Below are positions 24,852-59,367 of a DNA stretch of 64,000 nucleotides, piece after piece. Source of the DNA: an uncultured bacterium (GTDB taxonomy: Bacteria; Bacteroidota; Rhodothermia; Rhodothermales; UBA10348); contig CALSQR010000001.1 in assembly GCA_943788505.1 (NCBI GenBank), positions 744,001-808,000 of the forward strand, given 5' to 3'. Within the stretch, counting starts at the first letter, position 1. Every line of letters begins with the position of its first letter. The notes beneath the pieces were generated by a model. It saw only the letters and a list, made by a program, of their open reading frames with translations, had not been told where the DNA came from and made no database searches. A program made the position numbers and the translations under genes.

Positions 24852-25781
24852 CTAGCTAAGATCCTTTTTAACTCGAGGCTTTCCACCGTAGAGAATTATG
24901 AGAGACACGGCGGACACCATGATTACGATGGCAATCAGAATCCGGGCATTGACCGCCTCACCCGCCAGCCACCAGCCCAGGAATACGGCCACAACGGGAT
25001 TAACGAAGGCATACGACGATATCTGCTTGGGCGGCGCATTCGCCAGTAGCCATACATAGGCTGAAAACGCTACCAATGAACCGAAGATCACCAGATACCA
25101 CCACGCCCATGCGGACTGTTCAGATATAGCTCCCCATTCAAACACGCTCCACTCCCCTAGTGCAAGTCCCAGGAGACCCATAACAGCCCCACCAGCCGCC
25201 ATCTGAATCGCGGAAGACATGAATAGGTTTTCTGGCATCGCAATCATCTTGCTACGCAACGAGCCAGCAGACCAAGACAATGTGGCTGCTAACACCGCAA
25301 ACACTGCCATGGCACTAGAATCTTGAGCTCCCGATATAATCTCTGGCCCAGTCAATATCACGATTCCAAAAAACCCAAGAATGAGTCCGAAGATAACAGG
25401 ACGTGTCGGCGCGCCACCCTTCAACATCTTCCAATCAAGCAGAACCAACCAGAGAGGAACCGCCGTAATAATGAGCGCCACAAATCCTGAGTCAATGTAC
25501 TGCTCTGCCCATGCAATTAATCCGGTCCCTATGCCCAACGTGAATATCCCTATCAACGCTCCATTGACAGTACGTTTCAACGGAGGTCGCTTAATGCCCT
25601 TCAACCGCAAGAAGCCATAGAGCACCATTCCGGCAAAAAGGAACCGTGACCCAATCGTCAGAAACGGTGGAATTGTATCAATAGCGAATGCAATCGCTAG
25701 ATATGTCGACCCCCACACGATGTAAATCATCGCGAAGGCAAGAATCATCTTGAGAGAACCACCCGGGGAAGGATTGGTCAT
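24852..25781 (-). CDS. EamA/DMT-family exporter
   Basis: This 309-residue inner-membrane transporter has ten predicted helices made of two EamA repeats. Repeat one contains MIYIVWGSTYLAIAFAIDTIP and FLTIGSRFLFAG, GLIAWAEQYIDSGFVALI, then VILTGPEI. Repeat two contains WSAGSLRSKM, AYVWLLANAPPKQISSYAFVNPVVAV and FLGWWLAGEAVN. It resembles the YedA-type metabolite exporters that move amino acids or related small molecules out of the cell. The ATG at 25781 is the natural start. It is divergent from the TPR-CHAT gene with about 190 bases between. The substrate cannot be read. Confidence 0.9.
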   Translation of the reverse strand: MTNPSPGGSLKMILAFAMIYIVWGSTYLAIAFAIDTIPPFLTIGSRFLFAGMVLYGFLRLKGIKRPPLKRTVNGALIGIFTLGIGTGLIAWAEQYIDSGFVALIITAVPLWLVLLDWKMLKGGAPTRPVIFGLILGFFGIVILTGPEIISGAQDSSAMAVFAVLAATLSWSAGSLRSKMIAMPENLFMSSAIQMAAGGAVMGLLGLALGEWSVFEWGAISEQSAWAWWYLVIFGSLVAFSAYVWLLANAPPKQISSYAFVNPVVAVFLGWWLAGEAVNARILIAIVIMVSAVSLIILYGGKPRVKKDLS

Positions 25782-25972
25782 GGTTTTTTTCGTGAATCCG
25801 GTCTTTGGATTGTGAAAAGCTAGATCTTCAGATTTGTCGCATGTAGTCGTAGGATTTCTCTGTTTTGCGTTTAATCAGGAAAGGGTTCGTCGCAAAGTTA
25901 CGAGGAGGGGAGACGAGACTCTTTAAATAATGAATTGAACGAAACAAGATTAATCTCGATAGAGGTATTGCA

Positions 25973-27865
25973 TTGAAATCACAACAAGCTAACGTATTCA
26001 TTACCCCAATATTATTTTCGGTATTTGCAATCGGTTGCCTTCAATTTCCTTCCAATCAAGAACAAGGCTCTCTTTCAGAGCGAGCGCTGAAAGCCTCGTT
26101 CCGTCTTCAATATTCTCAGGCCGACTCCTTATATCTTGCGGCCTCTGATTCAGCTTCAACAGAAGGTAATAATGACTTGGTACAAAGAATGATGATAGCT
26201 AGAGGTGAGCTATTGCTTGGTCAAGGAAAGTTCATTGAAGCCAAAACATTGTTCCTCCAGTTAGTTTCTTCCGTTGAAAACGAGAATGTAACTCACCACA
26301 GTCTATCGCTTGGTAATTGCTATCTGGCAGAAATCGCTATCAGAACAGGTGCCTTCTTCAAAGCCGACAACTACCTCAAAGAATGCTGGTATTTCATGCC
26401 ATCACTTGAGAAAGACCGGATTGATATTGAGCCATATTACTTCCACACTTTAGGCTTTTTACATCACCAACAGGCTCAGTTTGATCAAGCTCTAGAATAT
26501 TATGACATTGCTGTGTCCAAATATTCGTTAGACGATACCAACAGGACTCTTGCTTATACAAATACACTCAATAACATAGGCAATGTGTATTACAGAATGG
26601 GGCTGTACGACCAAGCTGAAGATATGCATAGTGACAATGTCATTGTGCGTTCATCTTTCCTTCCTAGTAATCATCCCAAGATTGCTGGTTCAATCGGTAA
26701 TTTAGGTATAGTATACTTTGCGAAAGGTCAATACAATAAGGCGCTTCAGTATCAGTTCAGGTCTCTCGATATATGGCGTAATAGTGGTCGAATCGAGGAT
26801 CTATCAATCGCTCTAACTTATGACAACATTGGACAATCTTACTCAGCATCGGGTGATTTTGTAAATGCTCTATCATACCTCAATAAATCCCTCGTAATAA
26901 AATCTAATTATCTCTCGGAGCATCACCCCTCAAAGGCCACCACATATTGTCACTTAGCATCTACTTTGTTAAGCCTAGGAGATTTGCGGAGTGCCGAAGA
27001 CGCCATCAATATCGCTTTGAGTATTCTTGAGTCAGAAAACCTGACAAGCAAGCCATTATACGTTCTTGCGATTGGCACAAAGGCTAAGTTACTAGCCCTT
27101 CGAGGAAGGGTCGCCGAGGCAACCGCCCTGATAACGCATGCTTATGAGATCTCGAGCCACCAATCTCATCCTGTATTCGCAAAAGTCCTAAACCATAAGG
27201 CTGACATATGCCTAGAGCATAGACTTTATGATTGTGCTGTGGAGACCGCTCACACTGCTTTATACACAATCCTTGGGGCACCTGGTTTCAAGAACGAACG
27301 TTTTTCTGCGATTAGATTGGATTACAAAAATGCAGAATCTCTTTTATCATCTCTAAATTTGAAAGGGAAGGCACTGTTTCAACGCGGCTTGTCCCTCTCC
27401 AGTGAAATTGACTTAAATGCATCTTTCGATTCTTATGAACGGGCAGTTCGTTTGATTAGCAAAATCTATAGGTCTGGCTCACACTATGATGAGAGTTACC
27501 TACCTGTATACCAAAATGAGGTGATTCAAGGCGCGCTAATGGTAGGCCTGGAGCTAATTGACCGAAGCGACAATTCAGATGAAATAATCAAAAGAATGTT
27601 CAGCATTGTTGATGACTCTCGGAGTAGTGGCATCGTCGATAAACGCCAGAGAGAAACATTCATTGGTCATAGGACGGCAACCCAGCGTCAAGGTCCATTT
27701 CAGACTAAAGATGTAGATGATACCGTCATTGTCAGAGACCCAAAAGCCAGCACCTCATCCTTGTCTCCTCATAAATTCGACAGAAGTAGTTATAACCATA
27801 CTCCTTTTTCTCTAGTCTCATCAATTATTGTGAAAGACGGTTATTCTTTAATAGAGTATTTTTAA
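25973..27865 (+). CDS. TPR part of a TPR-CHAT lipoprotein (ends at in-frame stop)
   Basis: The 630-residue N-terminal portion starts at a TTG, then has a lipoprotein signal (FITPILFSVFAIGC), so it is predicted to be envelope-anchored. Residues 60-470 are tetratricopeptide repeats, for example NTLNNIGNVYYRMGLYDQAE, SIGNLGIVYFAKGQYNKAL and LTYDNIGQSYSASGDFVNAL. It ends DGYSLIEYF at a TAA (27863-27865). The next codons, in the same frame, read IQDDIYAFIIKDKSIYL and run straight into the CHAT peptidase domain. The first residues of CHAT domains typically look like LVEYF...YAF, so the stop cuts one protein. GC content is clearly lower than in neighbours. Transferred origin is inferred. Confidence 0.8.
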   Translation: MKSQQANVFITPILFSVFAIGCLQFPSNQEQGSLSERALKASFRLQYSQADSLYLAASDSASTEGNNDLVQRMMIARGELLLGQGKFIEAKTLFLQLVSSVENENVTHHSLSLGNCYLAEIAIRTGAFFKADNYLKECWYFMPSLEKDRIDIEPYYFHTLGFLHHQQAQFDQALEYYDIAVSKYSLDDTNRTLAYTNTLNNIGNVYYRMGLYDQAEDMHSDNVIVRSSFLPSNHPKIAGSIGNLGIVYFAKGQYNKALQYQFRSLDIWRNSGRIEDLSIALTYDNIGQSYSASGDFVNALSYLNKSLVIKSNYLSEHHPSKATTYCHLASTLLSLGDLRSAEDAINIALSILESENLTSKPLYVLAIGTKAKLLALRGRVAEATALITHAYEISSHQSHPVFAKVLNHKADICLEHRLYDCAVETAHTALYTILGAPGFKNERFSAIRLDYKNAESLLSSLNLKGKALFQRGLSLSSEIDLNASFDSYERAVRLISKIYRSGSHYDESYLPVYQNEVIQGALMVGLELIDRSDNSDEIIKRMFSIVDDSRSSGIVDKRQRETFIGHRTATQRQGPFQTKDVDDTVIVRDPKASTSSLSPHKFDRSSYNHTPFSLVSSIIVKDGYSLIEYF

Positions 27866-28996
27866 ATCCAAGATGACATATATGCTTTTATTATAAAAGA
27901 CAAAAGTATTTACCTCATGCGGATAGGTCCATCAATAGAAGTGGCCCATTTAACGAATAAATTGCGGGTTGCTTACGAGCAGAGCACAGCAGCCGACATA
28001 TTGAAATATTCGTTTTCGCTGTACAATCTTTTGCTTTTTCCAATGATGGATATTATCGGAGAAGACGATCTTATAATCATCCCCAATCAGTCACTTTCAT
28101 CAATTTCATTCGAAGCGCTTACGACATCACCAGTTGATTCACTGGAAGATTCTACACGTTTTGACGCTTTCCCCTTTTTGATAAAAGATCGAACCGTAAC
28201 CTATGGCTTCGCAGCTTCACTTCTAATGATGCAGTCATATCCTAAACAAAAGCTTTTCAATAATGACTTATTAGCTTTTGCACCCGTTTTTGATATTGAT
28301 GTTCAATATTCGCAAGTTGTTGCGAGCTTCGTGAATCGAAATTCCTCCGCTCAAGTATTTGACAGTTACAATTTGCTCCCACCGCTCCCGGGGTCGGAGC
28401 GTGAGGTGAAGTCGATTGCAAGTATCTTGAAATGGAAAGATGGTTGGAAAGGGGTGTTTACGTCTCCTCCGAGTGATGTTCTGTTGCGAGAAGAGTCTAC
28501 AGAGCACCGTTTGAAATCAACGGATCTGACTCAATACCGCTATTTGCACTTCGCAACGCATAGTTTTGCCGATAAAAACAATCCGGCAGAATCGGGCATT
28601 ATCCTAGAGACGAGCGGTTCTGATGGAGAGGATGGTATTCTTCACGCACATGAGATTTTTGATCTGAATTTGAATGCTGAATTGGTCGTATTGAGTTCTT
28701 GTGATACGGCTAAGGATGCTGCAAATGACAATTCAGGGCTATCTGGCTTTGCGAAGGGATTCATTTATGCAGGAGCCCGCAACCTGGTAGCATCGCTCTG
28801 GCCAAGCGACGATGTCGGGACTCAGATACTGATGCAGGAGTTCTATCAGGAGTTGGCCAAGGGGCTCTCCTCCGATGTAGCGCTTCGCAACGCCAAGTTG
28901 AACTTGATCAATTCAAAGGGCCCAATCGCCAAACCCTATTACTGGTCGGGTTTCATTCATATTGGTCCACCTGGGGCTAGTGAGACGGCACCATAA
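27866..28996 (+). CDS. CHAT peptidase part of the TPR-CHAT lipoprotein
   Basis: This is the continuation of the preceding frame. CHAT is a caspase-like cysteine peptidase fold. The likely catalytic His is in YLHFATHSF (codon 28559-28561) and the Cys in LVVLSSCDTA (28700-28702). These are residues 863 and 910 of the joined 1007-residue frame. Other family marks are LPPLPGSEREVKSIASIL, FAKGFIYAGARNLVASLW and the C-terminal PYYWSGFIHIG. An ATG at 27917 could start a separate product, but it would lack the first strand of the domain. All catalytic parts look intact, so the break is recent, an error, or read through. TPR-CHAT proteins act in proteolytic signalling and some defence systems. Confidence 0.82.
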   Translation: MQDDIYAFIIKDKSIYLMRIGPSIEVAHLTNKLRVAYEQSTAADILKYSFSLYNLLLFPMMDIIGEDDLIIIPNQSLSSISFEALTTSPVDSLEDSTRFDAFPFLIKDRTVTYGFAASLLMMQSYPKQKLFNNDLLAFAPVFDIDVQYSQVVASFVNRNSSAQVFDSYNLLPPLPGSEREVKSIASILKWKDGWKGVFTSPPSDVLLREESTEHRLKSTDLTQYRYLHFATHSFADKNNPAESGIILETSGSDGEDGILHAHEIFDLNLNAELVVLSSCDTAKDAANDNSGLSGFAKGFIYAGARNLVASLWPSDDVGTQILMQEFYQELAKGLSSDVALRNAKLNLINSKGPIAKPYYWSGFIHIGPPGASETAP

Positions 28997-29041: not shown

Positions 29042-30247
29042 CTACCTATTCCCCTGCGCCATTCGCGCGGCTTCGGGAAGCGATCGAAGGCGTAGCATGC
29101 TGACGATACCGAAGACGGGGCCTGGAATAAGGATGAGCCACGCCCATTCGTAGCCGACGGTGTCTACGAGGAACGGCATGGCTTGAAGCGTTACGAGTGT
29201 TAGGAGGAAGCCCAGACTCGTCTGCACTTGAAGAGCAGTGCCGACGTAGCTCGAGTCGGCAAGCTCTGATACGGCGGCGCTAAACTGAGCAGAGTCAGCA
29301 ATGACGGCGAAGCCCCAAAGCAGGCACACTATGGTGAGCAGGATGGGCTGATGGATGATTAATCCGACGACAGCGCAACAGACTCCTGAAATCGCGAGGG
29401 CAACGGCCGTGATCCGAGTGCGTCCGAGTCGATCTGCATAAATGCCGGCGAGAGTAGAGCCGAAAGCACCCGTTACAAACAAACCGAAGGCCGCGAAACG
29501 AGCCATCTGCTCACTAAGACCGGCCTCTTTATAGCTAACTAAAAGCATGATCGGGGCCCATGCCCAGACGGCATAGAGCTCCCACATATGGCCGAAATAG
29601 CCAAAGTTGGCTAGGCGTGTCGGGCGGTCGGTTAGACCCGAAGCAGCATGCTTCCAGCTGAATGCCGAGGCGCGCCCGAGGAAAGGACCCGATCGGATGA
29701 AAAACCAGGCAATCACGGCCGCCAGCGCTGCCTGAATGGAGGTGCCATACAGAACTAAACGCCATGGCGGAATGCCGCTAGCGCCGGCTGAGAGGGCATT
29801 CAGAAGATGGGGCATTCCTGATCCGATGGTCAATGCGCCCACGAGCAACCCAATGAATTTGCCGCGATCACCGGATGTCCAGGAGGCAATGATCTTCATG
29901 GCCGGTGGATAGACGCCCGCCATCGCCGCGCCAGTCAGAAAACGGAATACAATAGCCGACTCGGGGCCTGTAGATAGCAATGGAATACAGGCATTGACTG
30001 CAGCGCCCAATAAAGCACTGAGTGCCACTAACTTGTTGGCCTCCATCTTGTCCGCGAGGTTCAGGACGGCCGATAGTAGGGCTCCTGCTACGAAGCCAAT
30101 CTGCACGGACATCGTCATCCAAGCCTGCATCGAACCGCTCAGCCCCCATTCACGCGTCAATTGCGGAATGACAGCCGAGGCGGAAAACCAAAGTGATAAC
30201 GACAGCAACGTCGCTAGCGAAAGCAACGTGATGTTGCGAGCCTTCAT
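29042..30247 (-). CDS. Major facilitator superfamily transporter
   Basis: This 401-residue protein has about twelve hydrophobic helices. The N-terminal half carries LSLSLWFSASAVIPQLTREW and the loop after helix 2. The central loop has SWKHAASGLTDRP, and the second half includes GIYADRLGRTRITAVALAISG, the GxxxDRxGR motif A of the superfamily. It resembles the cyanate/nitrate-type and CynX-like branch by the N-terminal ALWFSA pattern, but that is tentative. It converges with the TPR-CHAT gene with 45 bases between and is followed in the opposite direction of reading by the OsmC gene about 110 bases away. The substrate is unknown. Confidence 0.88.
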   Translation of the reverse strand: MKARNITLLSLATLLSLSLWFSASAVIPQLTREWGLSGSMQAWMTMSVQIGFVAGALLSAVLNLADKMEANKLVALSALLGAAVNACIPLLSTGPESAIVFRFLTGAAMAGVYPPAMKIIASWTSGDRGKFIGLLVGALTIGSGMPHLLNALSAGASGIPPWRLVLYGTSIQAALAAVIAWFFIRSGPFLGRASAFSWKHAASGLTDRPTRLANFGYFGHMWELYAVWAWAPIMLLVSYKEAGLSEQMARFAAFGLFVTGAFGSTLAGIYADRLGRTRITAVALAISGVCCAVVGLIIHQPILLTIVCLLWGFAVIADSAQFSAAVSELADSSYVGTALQVQTSLGFLLTLVTLQAMPFLVDTVGYEWAWLILIPGPVFGIVSMLRLRSLPEAARMAQGNR

Positions 30248-54790: not shown

Positions 54791-56758
54791 TCAATCAGGT
54801 AGTGCCTCACTTTGAACCAATGGAACGCGAATCCAAAACACGGTTCCTCGATCAAACTCAGTATCGAACCCTATTTCTCCATCCATACTTTCAACCGTCT
54901 TGCGCGCAATGGCTAGACCCAGACCCGTGCCACTGGTCTTCGTTGAAAAACTAGGCACAAAGATTTTGTCCCATAGATTTCTGGGAATACCTGAGCCGTT
55001 GTCTGCAACGCGACCTATAGCCCACGTACGACCGGTCGCATCCGGGTCAATCACTGTCGATACCGTAATTAGGGCCTCCCGGTCATCAGGAACGGCCTGT
55101 ATGGCATTCTTGATAAAGTTGACGTAAACCCTTCGCAACGCTTCCCTGTCTCCGCTGACAACAAGGGGCATGTCGTGTAGATCGGTCTCGATTGTAACAT
55201 TCTCCTCGGCCGCCATGAGGCCCACCGCCTCCATAATGACTTCGTTCAGGTCGATTTCCTCCCGAATATGGGTTGGCATGCGACCGAAAGAGGAAAACTC
55301 ATTGGCAATGCGAGCAAGGGTATCAATCTGTTCAATGAGCGTGGTCGTTGTCTGAGAGAACTTACCCGAAAATTTCTCGTCCTCGGATCCATCGTCCGCT
55401 TTGCGCAAGAAGGCCGCCCTGAGATGCTGAATAGACAGCTTCATTGGCGTGAGAGGGTTTTTGATCTCGTGCGCGACCTGGCGAGCCATTTCGCGCCAGG
55501 CCAGCTGGCGCTCCTGCTGGGACAGCAGGGAGCGGCTCTCTTGGAGCTGATCCTGCATCGTGTTGAATGAATCCACTAGATCTGCGATCTCATCTCCAGA
55601 ATCCACCTTAGAGATCCGCTCGAAATGGCCCGCCGCCACGGCCTGAAGGCCTGCGCGCAGCTGCGCAATGGGACGCGTCAAGGCATTGGCCAGCAACGAG
55701 GCCGTCACCATCACCACAAGAACGAGCAATAACAGCGCCCCAAACAGATATGCAACCGTCCGCGCCCTCTCCTCCTCTATTCGCTCCTGCTCGGGCAGCG
55801 TTGGAATCGAGACTACATAATGCGGCGTCCCCCGCTCGTCTGTCATCGCACGATAGCCAGCGGTGTAGGCGAACGTGCCTAGGTTTTCATCTACGGTTAC
55901 AAATCGAAAGCCATCGAAATAAAGTGCCTCGAAGGCCTCCACAGGCAGTCGGCGCTCGATGAGTCTGTCACGAATTAGCTCGGGGCGGGAAGCCTGCTCC
56001 ACCTCCAAGTTGTGATATACCACCAGGTCAAGTCCGACACGAGCTGCCAATGAATCAACGCTCATCCGATCAAGAACGCGGTAGGGTAACTCTTCCCCCC
56101 TTGCTTCAAGCTCGAGTGTTTCCTCCACTCTGTCCAGATGCTGTCGAAGCCAAGACTCGATTGCTCGTTCGTTCTCTCCCGTAACGACCCGAAGTCCGAC
56201 TACGCCCATTGCCACGACCGTGATGATTCCCACGGAGAAAAACGCGTTTAGCACCCTATCGCGGAAATGGCGAATCTGAACCTTGGGCTCCGGTCTTCTC
56301 CAGCGAATAAAAAGGCCAGCGATATATACTGGGAACGCCAGAATGAGCCCTGCTACAATAATCCGCAACAGGTGATAAAGCTGATCGAATACGTTGGTCG
56401 TCCTTCGCCTCACGGCCGTCACGACCTGCCCCTCTCCAGAAGCGATGTTTTCCTTGACCAGATAATAGGTCTGGTAGGTTCGATCCCTAATCGATTCTCT
56501 CAGCCAGAGGCTCTCTTCCCCTTGGAGTTGCTGTTGTACTTCTTCGTCAAGCACACTTCGGCCATAGGATTGTCCCTCGGTCTGCACAAGCACCCCATTT
56601 CTGAATTCGGCGATGGACAGATCTGCATATCGATCTCCGTAGTATCCCGCAGGAGATAGAACCCGGGGAAACGGGTGTGCCGGCTGATTCGGTAAGAACC
56701 CGCTGCTCGGCACGGATAAGCAAGTATCCACCGACGGATAGGTCCCTAAATCCAGCAT
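54791..56758 (-). CDS. C-terminal part of an NtrY-like sensor kinase (frame broken upstream)
   Basis: Real coding probably begins near 56698, where the frame of the larger N-terminal piece is lost. After LPNQPAHPFPRVLSPAGYYG come a periplasmic domain, two membrane segments, HAMP (SLLANALTRPIAQLRAGLQAV), and the dimerisation helix WREMARQVAHEIKNPLTPMKLSIQHL with the phosphorylated His codon at 55469-55471. Kinase boxes N (NFIKNAIQAVPD), G1 (VADNGSGIP), F (IFVPSFSTKTSGTGLGLAIA) and G2 follow. The N box and long linker fit the NtrY type. Sequence before 56698 in this frame is noise from the other frame. No response regulator is adjacent. Confidence 0.88.
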   Translation of the reverse strand: MLDLGTYPSVDTCLSVPSSGFLPNQPAHPFPRVLSPAGYYGDRYADLSIAEFRNGVLVQTEGQSYGRSVLDEEVQQQLQGEESLWLRESIRDRTYQTYYLVKENIASGEGQVVTAVRRRTTNVFDQLYHLLRIIVAGLILAFPVYIAGLFIRWRRPEPKVQIRHFRDRVLNAFFSVGIITVVAMGVVGLRVVTGENERAIESWLRQHLDRVEETLELEARGEELPYRVLDRMSVDSLAARVGLDLVVYHNLEVEQASRPELIRDRLIERRLPVEAFEALYFDGFRFVTVDENLGTFAYTAGYRAMTDERGTPHYVVSIPTLPEQERIEEERARTVAYLFGALLLLVLVVMVTASLLANALTRPIAQLRAGLQAVAAGHFERISKVDSGDEIADLVDSFNTMQDQLQESRSLLSQQERQLAWREMARQVAHEIKNPLTPMKLSIQHLRAAFLRKADDGSEDEKFSGKFSQTTTTLIEQIDTLARIANEFSSFGRMPTHIREEIDLNEVIMEAVGLMAAEENVTIETDLHDMPLVVSGDREALRRVYVNFIKNAIQAVPDDREALITVSTVIDPDATGRTWAIGRVADNGSGIPRNLWDKIFVPSFSTKTSGTGLGLAIARKTVESMDGEIGFDTEFDRGTVFWIRVPLVQSEALPD

Positions 56759-58886
56759 ATCGAAACCGGTTTTGATCGCTGGTTCCGGTAAGTTTTTCGA
56801 TCATGGATCCCGATTCACCAAAGTCGTCGTACATGGCTCGAAAGAGGACGTATTCAGTTTCGTCCTCTGCATCCCTTAGCGGTCTGGGGAGCCGTCTGGC
56901 AAGATTGCTATACCGTCCAAGTACCCTTCCCGCCTCTGAAAACAGCGTCACTGTCACATCGTAACTCGATAAGGCGGACAGCATGAAACCTGTGGTGACA
57001 GATTCTGCTAGTGAATCAATGGCTGGACGGCCAAAGGCTAGATCATCTTGTCGATGGCGCGCGAGCGCTTCCGTCATACCGTTGTCGTCAGCAGCATCCA
57101 GCACCTGAGAAATAGCGAACATGGCCCTCGCATCCCTGTCCTCTAGGAATGAACCTGCAGCCTCTTCCATCCGCAGCCGAATCTTATCCGTAGAGCTGAT
57201 TTCAAGCATTGGAAACAGGGCCAGCGATGTAACGATCACAAGAGGGACTATGCGTCGAAGAACGACGATTGGAGATTGGTCGACAGGTTGAATCGGGCCA
57301 AGCATTGCTGCCGTCCACGCCAGAATGGTCATGATGGCTAGCACGAACGCGGGCATCAGGATTCCAGCGCCTAGATTTCCGGGTCCAAGTAGCCCCCCAG
57401 CCATCGACATCAAAGCAGCAGCAATTGCATAAATCACGAAAACCAGTGTCACCGTGACGGCCGGAGAAGGCAGATCATTTTGAACCACCTTCAACCGATC
57501 GAATAGCAACCAGCCACAACGAGCAATCAACAGAATACTCGAAAACACCAGCATCAGGAGGGACCCAAATACGAGTAGGACCAAACGGCCGGGCAATAGA
57601 CCGCTTCGTTCAAAGAAGTCGAGTGTGCTATCCAGTATGGTGTGATGAGCTATTTGAAAGAGCAGCAGCGTACCAGCGAGGATTACTAGTTGCTGCAGAA
57701 TCAGACCGGCAATAAGGCCAGCCGCTGGCTTTCCTGAACCGAATCTCAGTGCGGCAACAGCTCGGCGACGAACTGGGGACGTCACCCGCATAACAACAAG
57801 CGCAACGAGCGTAAAGAAGACGGCAGAAATAAAGAGGTCGCCGATGGTGCTCATGGCACCCCATCCATAAACTGATGCAAGGTGCTGCGCATCAAAAAGG
57901 GGCGCAAATGGGGCTTTGCCTGACTGCCAACGTCCAGGAAGGTTCAGAAATAGAAACGCCCATCGCGTAAGTACGAGCCACGTGACCCAAGACAAAAGAA
58001 TCAATCCTTGCTTCGCCCCATCTGGCGGGATATGCCACAGCAGCCACGTCCAGCGGATAACCAGAAAAAGCATGGCCAAAAACAGCCAAAAAAGGACGGT
58101 ATCGTTATAGCGCCCCTGACGCTCATTGCGCCACCCCTCAAACGCCGGCGCAGAAATTGTTACGCTACCAACAAATACATCTTGTGGAGATCGCAGTACA
58201 AATCGGTCCGCACGCTCCCGTAGTTCATTACCTCCGAAAGTAAACTGAACCGGTTGCCCTAGTCGTTCACTCCATTCCTCACCCCAGGTATAATCACGTA
58301 GATATTCGTTCCGCAGCGGCATCCGACGCTCAACGATTTCGCCTACGCGGACAACCCCTACAATGGTTGACCCATCCAGAACGGGTGTCCAAACGGTGAG
58401 GGCTGTCCTTCGGTTTGCATCCAGCGCCACGCTCTCCTGCACCTGGAGCATGAATCGCTCTTGCCGCACGGCCCCATCGACAGGGAACGCCGCACCACTC
58501 CATGCTTGTAGACTTGGCGTTGGATCATAGATTTCAACGAATCGCAGAGGATTCTTGCTGATTCGCGTTGCACGTCGAACGAGCTGTTCTTGCCCGCTTC
58601 CCGCATCCACCAGACCTCTCAGACCCTGAACGATGTCTGGATCCCGGGCGAGCAGCGCCGCCTCAGCTCTGATTGCTGCAAAGGATTGATCCACTTCATT
58701 TTGGATCTCTACAGCTGACGCGCTTCGTTGCTCGGAAATGGATCGTTCAAAAGAATCTTCGGCACGTGAAACATCCCATTTCCCAATGCCCCAAGTGAGC
58801 AGGGCTGCCAAAAGGAGGCCTGTCAAGACCCAGCCAGTGCCTTTGCCCTTTACTACCATCACAAGATGTTGGCGTAGCTCACTCAT
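56547..58886 (-). CDS. N-terminal part of the same sensor kinase (frame broken at about 56700)
   Basis: This starts at the ATG at 58886, which overlaps the DUF4783 stop as ATGAGTGA. It has one anchor (WVLTGLLLAALLTWGI), an extracellular sensor region to about 270, then about eight membrane segments (from LFWLFLAMLFLVIRWTWLLW to about 580) and a second periplasmic sensor region ending SVGGYLLIRAEQR. From there this frame gives only unrelated residues to 56547, while the next frame continues sensibly. Removing one G from GGG at 56699-56701 joins both parts into one protein of about 1365 residues. The real gene therefore spans about 54791-58886. Confidence 0.82.
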   Translation of the reverse strand: MSELRQHLVMVVKGKGTGWVLTGLLLAALLTWGIGKWDVSRAEDSFERSISEQRSASAVEIQNEVDQSFAAIRAEAALLARDPDIVQGLRGLVDAGSGQEQLVRRATRISKNPLRFVEIYDPTPSLQAWSGAAFPVDGAVRQERFMLQVQESVALDANRRTALTVWTPVLDGSTIVGVVRVGEIVERRMPLRNEYLRDYTWGEEWSERLGQPVQFTFGGNELRERADRFVLRSPQDVFVGSVTISAPAFEGWRNERQGRYNDTVLFWLFLAMLFLVIRWTWLLWHIPPDGAKQGLILLSWVTWLVLTRWAFLFLNLPGRWQSGKAPFAPLFDAQHLASVYGWGAMSTIGDLFISAVFFTLVALVVMRVTSPVRRRAVAALRFGSGKPAAGLIAGLILQQLVILAGTLLLFQIAHHTILDSTLDFFERSGLLPGRLVLLVFGSLLMLVFSSILLIARCGWLLFDRLKVVQNDLPSPAVTVTLVFVIYAIAAALMSMAGGLLGPGNLGAGILMPAFVLAIMTILAWTAAMLGPIQPVDQSPIVVLRRIVPLVIVTSLALFPMLEISSTDKIRLRMEEAAGSFLEDRDARAMFAISQVLDAADDNGMTEALARHRQDDLAFGRPAIDSLAESVTTGFMLSALSSYDVTVTLFSEAGRVLGRYSNLARRLPRPLRDAEDETEYVLFRAMYDDFGESGSMIEKLTGTSDQNRFRYAGFRDLSVGGYLLIRAEQRVLTESAGTPVSPGSISCGILRRSICRSVHRRIQKWGACADRGTILWPKCA

Positions 58887-59367
58887 CCGCACGCTCGATA
58901 ACCATCTCTCTAATTTTCCAGATCCCACCACTTACTTGGTACCTAACAGTCCATTTCAATCGTCCTACAGAAGCGCTGGTACCCATTTCTGCTTCAACAA
59001 ACCCAGCCGACGGTGTCCTTGTAAATCGATCTACGCGGAATCCCGAAGGTGGATAATCCTTGAACACGTTTTTCAGCAGCAATGTCGCTTGCCCTCTCGA
59101 ATAGAATCGTCCCTCACCGAAAAGAGCAATTTCAACCGAGTACGTTGTTTCCGCTGCAAGGCTAGCAGCATCTGCGGCAAGAACGCGGGCGCGAAGTCTA
59201 TCGGCAACCGCTTCCCCTGAACGAAGAGATGAGTTTTGGGCGACAGCAGGCTGGAGTGCAAAGGAAAGCATCAGCATCAGCATCAGCATCAGCAACAACA
59301 CCATCACGACACACTGATGCCGTGTCGGTGAGACGATAAAGCGGTATGATCTGCAGGAAATGTGCAT
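58879..59367 (-). CDS. DUF4783-family exported protein
   Basis: This protein of about 162 residues has a signal region built partly from a hexanucleotide repeat (LMLMLMLM) and ending PAVAQ. The mature domain has VEIALFGEGRFYSRGQATLLLKNVFKDYPPSGF (about 75-110) and KWTVRYQVSGGIWKIREMVIE, the order seen in DUF4783 proteins of Bacteroidota. Function is unknown. The start is uncertain between ATGs at 59367 and 59304. It is upstream of, and overlaps by eight bases, the sensor kinase gene. Confidence 0.7.
   Translation of the reverse strand: MHISCRSYRFIVSPTRHQCVVMVLLLMLMLMLMLSFALQPAVAQNSSLRSGEAVADRLRARVLAADAASLAAETTYSVEIALFGEGRFYSRGQATLLLKNVFKDYPPSGFRVDRFTRTPSAGFVEAEMGTSASVGRLKWTVRYQVSGGIWKIREMVIERADE
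59268..59291. repeat. Hexanucleotide microsatellite in a signal peptide
   Basis: Four perfect copies of GCATCA are present, then one imperfect copy. It encodes Leu-Met pairs in the hydrophobic core of the DUF4783 signal peptide. Changes in copy number keep the frame. Confidence 0.85.

Follow-up and report, generated by a model that had tools for sequence, protein, structure and literature searches.

An in-frame stop codon in a TPR-CHAT lipoprotein gene: probably a recent nonsense allele

Introduction

A stop codon in the middle of an otherwise complete bacterial gene can mark a dead gene, a leaky stop, two separate proteins or a sequencing error. Such a case is found in the window, the whole stretch of 64,000 nucleotides that was analysed, where one frame of 1007 codons (25973-28993, + strand) encodes a lipoprotein signal, TPRs and a CHAT domain, and the sole internal stop is a TAA at 27863-27865. 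In-frame stops have been proposed as leaky for many bacterial genes, and conserved ones are reported to be common (PMC7918605). Here, we ask which of these readings fits the interrupted TPR-CHAT gene, and what the intact members of its family might do.

Reading Frame and Encoded Protein

The original prediction of one frame broken by the TAA alone is borne out; the other two forward frames are full of stops (41 and 57 upstream of the TAA, 27 and 23 downstream). Neither an IS remnant nor a frameshift is present at the stop. The gene starts with a TTG at 25973, and a GAGG (25962-25965, +) that may serve as ribosome-binding site lies 7 nt 5′ of it; a promoter scan was uninformative, with no hit 5′ of this TTG and a lower number of promoter-like sites than in shuffled sequences. 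The 5′ part (25973-27865, +) encodes 630 aa that comprise the lipoprotein signal, the TPR solenoid and a short linker, and the 3′ part (27866-28996, +) encodes the CHAT domain of 376 aa and ends in a natural stop at 28994-28996. The first in-frame ATG past the TAA, and the only likely re-start site, is at 27917-27919 (+).

All three parts of the predicted protein were recovered. The signal has a lipobox-like FAIGC, of which the Cys is residue 22 (codon 26036), the Pfam TPR_12 match (8.1e-33) lies upstream of the TAA, and the match to Pfam CHAT PF12770 (8.7e-59) lies downstream and covers profile positions 6-288 of 289, which is the whole domain. The His codon at 28559-28561 (+, HFATH) and the Cys codon at 28700-28702 (+, LSSCD), which had been named as retained, indeed fall in the HxATH and SSC columns that are invariant in 16 relatives (alignment A2). 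They correspond to H232 and C279 in the numbering of the 3′ part and are the retained catalytic-type pair of PF12770. The codons directly after the stop (IQDDIYAF), proposed to complete the first CHAT strand, align without gaps with the strand past the stop column in the relatives. The segment between TPRs and CHAT (window positions ~27600-27850, and orthologs at loci L064, L066, and L072) aligns poorly in the window gene; this linker is shorter in the genus mates of the window genome, and a longer helical linker is retained in other genera.

At the N-terminus, 12 orthologs have a lipobox-like Cys, and those of G010, G021, G011, G017, and G025 have a hydrophobic anchor that lacks the Cys, so the family is, judged from sequence, probably exported and membrane-anchored.

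Orthologs and Genomic Context

The window genome (G000; 2.75 Mb, two contigs, 97% complete) contains the TPR-CHAT gene in single copy. A T9SS plug protein encoded nearby suggests that the genome belongs on the Bacteroidota/Rhodothermota side. Intact one-frame orthologs of about 970-1060 aa are present in the same genus and family, and the chromosomal place is shared by several related genera. In the window, the gene is flanked by a divergent EamA transporter gene (24852-25781, -) and a convergent MFS transporter gene (29042-30247, -), both identified by Pfam and conserved in synteny. The order EamA(-), TPR-CHAT(+), MFS(-) is common to G000, G010, G021, G005, and G011; in G017, G004, G006, and G003 it can be followed across contigs that are split or short. 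The MFS side is also retained in G013, G024, G025, and four genomes of the genus g3. In G002 the EamA and the MFS gene are each located at a contig end, so that an assembly gap probably hides its TPR-CHAT copy. The TPR-CHAT gene is vertically inherited. A scan of the collection for close relatives yielded one distant Calothrix locus. In G011, the EamA gene (L067, G011:C87, 6135-6830) apparently lacks its N-terminal third, next to an intact TPR-CHAT gene.

Because the gene is divergent from one neighbor and convergent with the other, it stands alone without an operon partner. No partner gene was found in the conserved neighborhood of the orthologs, which sit singly between EamA and MFS, and the earlier remark that no partner is obvious is thereby strengthened.

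The TPR-CHAT gene changes much faster than its neighbors: identity to the two best-placed relatives is 38-53% for the CHAT part and about 25-28% for the TPR part, vs. 64-75% for the neighboring genes. Its GC content is also lower than that of its flanks (0.425 vs. 0.50-0.55), as had been noticed. That this AT-richness is special is, however, not supported, since most close orthologs are likewise AT-richer than their neighbors (G010, G021, G005, G013, G011, G017, G006, G025, G015, G014, and G007); no such bias is seen in G004, in G003, or in the more distant copies of g3. Horizontal transfer as a source of the AT-richness was considered and rejected on the basis of the synteny and the AT-rich close orthologs.

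The Stop Codon in Comparison with Relatives

At the stop column, where the window gene reads IEYF-stop-IQD, the relatives read IEYVDID, IQYYEVE, VEYIEVD, VEYVQIR, and LEFFELD, so that the residue in the nearest relatives is Asp, Glu, or Gln. An order-wide survey (114 genomes, about 90 CHAT matches) found no stop at the same column elsewhere; the other stops that it reported, where checked in relatives, are natural gene ends. Relatives with two separate genes, which would have spoken against an interrupted gene, were also looked for; none is split in two, and the relatives have one uninterrupted frame. Intact orthologs at this locus thus lack the disabling lesion, as is expected if the window copy is a pseudogene.

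The CHAT half shows no decay. Of the invariant columns, the window copy retains 49 of the 50 that follow the stop and 15 of the 18 that precede it, and its CHAT branch length (0.56) is close to that of its sister G010 (0.54). In a neutral simulation that included indels, the probability of no further lesion after inactivation was 0.22 at 0.005 substitutions per site and dropped to 0.04 at 0.01 and to 0.0025 at 0.02, so that no more than about 0.01 substitutions per site can have accumulated since the event. A death of the gene would have to be very recent.

Two other members of the family are broken independently. One ortholog has an in-frame TAA in the TPR region (L070, G025:C239, about 6658), and in another an IS3-type orfA/orfB pair (L009, G024:C216, 2292-3403) has inserted immediately 5′ of the CHAT part. 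Altogether, three of the 13 assessable TPR-CHAT orthologs are broken vs. none of the 37 flanking MFS and EamA genes with an internal stop. An inactivation hot spot is suggested by these counts, but the difference is not significant per base, given the roughly threefold greater length of the CHAT gene. The independent breaks hint, without statistical firmness, at a dispensable, fast-evolving gene.

Sequence Errors in the Window Genome

The apparent error level of the assembly was estimated in two ways. A hexamer survey for stop-split genes in a 1.26 Mb sample of the window genome detected one further clear case, a comM/yifB-like gene (L172, 8419-9954, -) with a TAG at G000:C1:449355, between the ChlI and Mg_chelatase domains; its cut-off would not have caught the window gene, whose 5′ score is 0.11, and such genes may therefore be undercounted. 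The comM/yifB-like gene is intact in nearly all relatives, and G006 has one TAG somewhere in the gene. For frameshifts, 291 frames of G005 were compared, of which 89 orthologs could be assessed; several of the 89 were antisense artefacts, and after removal of antisense and start-site artefacts by eye a single plausible frameshift was left, at about 56673 in a sensor histidine kinase gene of the window (54791-58931, -). This gene consists of two overlapping frames with the break near 56673-56695, beside a C-run, and corresponds to one 1375-aa frame in G005. The break is either a frameshift or an indel error.

Origin of the Stop Codon

A real, recent, and lineage-specific nonsense mutation that inactivated the single-copy, vertically inherited TPR-CHAT gene of this genome is the likely origin of the stop. 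The gene is the sole copy, one open frame exists at the same locus in related genera, and the stop is unique; the undecayed CHAT half, the simulation, the lack of a stop-reading tRNA and the independent losses in relatives point the same way. Counted against a nonsense allele are the frameshifted kinase gene in the same window, by which consensus errors may exist, and the perfect downstream half, which is also expected of an error or of a gene that is still expressed. These points bear on a base-calling or consensus error at 27863 that would leave the gene intact in the living cell. The two contigs suggest long reads, and the kinase break beside a C-run could be an assembly error; yet the lesion here is an in-frame codon instead of an indel, only one other clear stop-split gene (comM) in the 1.26 Mb sample and one plausible frameshift among the 89 assessed orthologs were found, and a rate that yields two nonsense codons should yield many more frameshifts. 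As the apparent error level is low but not zero, an error at 27863 is unlikely but keeps an appreciable share of the probability. Among the three options of the original prediction, recent nonsense is thus best supported and an assembly error is the lesser possibility, while readthrough is favored by the open frame alone.

Leaky termination, by which a short TPR lipoprotein would be made together with a little full-length TPR-CHAT protein, agrees with a frame and an active site that are unbroken past the stop, and is very improbable. TAA is the most efficient stop codon in bacteria. Among the 38 tRNA genes of the window genome none has the anticodon TTA, CTA, or TCA, the 120 nt downstream of the stop are no more stably folded than shuffled sequences (z -0.70), and the stop is conserved in none of the relatives. 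The marks of programmed readthrough or recoding, a conserved stop and either a suppressor tRNA or a stimulatory RNA element, are therefore missing. The gene resembles the published in-frame-stop genes in that one stop interrupts a frame that is conserved elsewhere along its length, but the stops in that study are conserved (PMC7918605), whereas this one is present in one genome only. Slighter still is the chance of two separate functional proteins, with translation of the CHAT part beginning anew at ATG 27917. This ATG follows the stop by 17 codons and precedes the entire Pfam CHAT match, but it has no Shine-Dalgarno-like sequence, its product would lack the export signal and the first CHAT strand, and the layout is found in none of the relatives. 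Also improbable, if marginally less so than leaky termination, is a tolerated stop that serves as an on/off allele of a TPR-CHAT sensor-protease, an exported and fast-evolving protein that is repeatedly switched off in this bacterial family by nonsense mutation and IS insertion. It would fit a costly self/non-self or envelope-surveillance protein, of which the short TPR lipoprotein may be a decoy.

With the nonsense allele as the preferred reading, translation in the window genome most likely stops after 630 residues, and the outcome is probably an anchored TPR lipoprotein that lacks the protease-like domain. Whether a nonsense allele or a consensus error, the interruption is an ordinary event in a protein of a known kind and has little significance as such.

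The Intact Family and Known TPR-CHAT Systems

What deserves attention is the intact family, with a probably exported, membrane-anchored TPR-CHAT protein, a fixed chromosomal locus, fast evolution and no partner gene. In the intact relatives, the protein would be tethered to the membrane by its lipid or hydrophobic N-terminal anchor and would face outward. Its fast-evolving TPR solenoid is probably where a protein or peptide ligand binds. A defence role is not favored because the protein is probably exported, defence-gene neighbors are absent (the gene is surrounded by EamA, MFS, OsmC, DUF4953, and T9SS plug genes), and a CHAT-type PADLOC match is absent. PADLOC assigned the window protein to a generic TPR model only, with none for the CHAT part, and gave one relative a weak BovA match (5.6e-5).

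The best-studied TPR-CHAT protease is Csx29 of type III-E CRISPR (Craspase), which has a cytoplasmic CRISPR effector as partner. Like the window protein, it has N-terminal TPRs followed by a CHAT domain with a His-Cys pair, and its TPR segment relays binding to the CHAT site by allostery (PMC10028731). By analogy, ligand binding in the window family would probably open the His-Cys site to cut a substrate that is encoded elsewhere. In contrast to Csx29, the family is probably exported, Cas7-11 and Csx30 genes are missing both around the window copy and in the conserved neighborhood, and a PDB search with the CHAT profile gave no match to Csx29. The only solved chain matched by this profile is a CHAT protein (PDB 8rot/8rw5, E 7.3e-9), which covers 149 of 380 profile positions, in the catalytic half; with the full-length profile, the matches listed are TPR proteins only. 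Although the CHAT domain is N-terminal in HetF of cyanobacteria (aa 1-555), in contrast to its C-terminal position here, and the heterocyst context is absent, HetF likewise combines TPRs, a CHAT domain and one membrane segment in a putative protease (PMC8406250).
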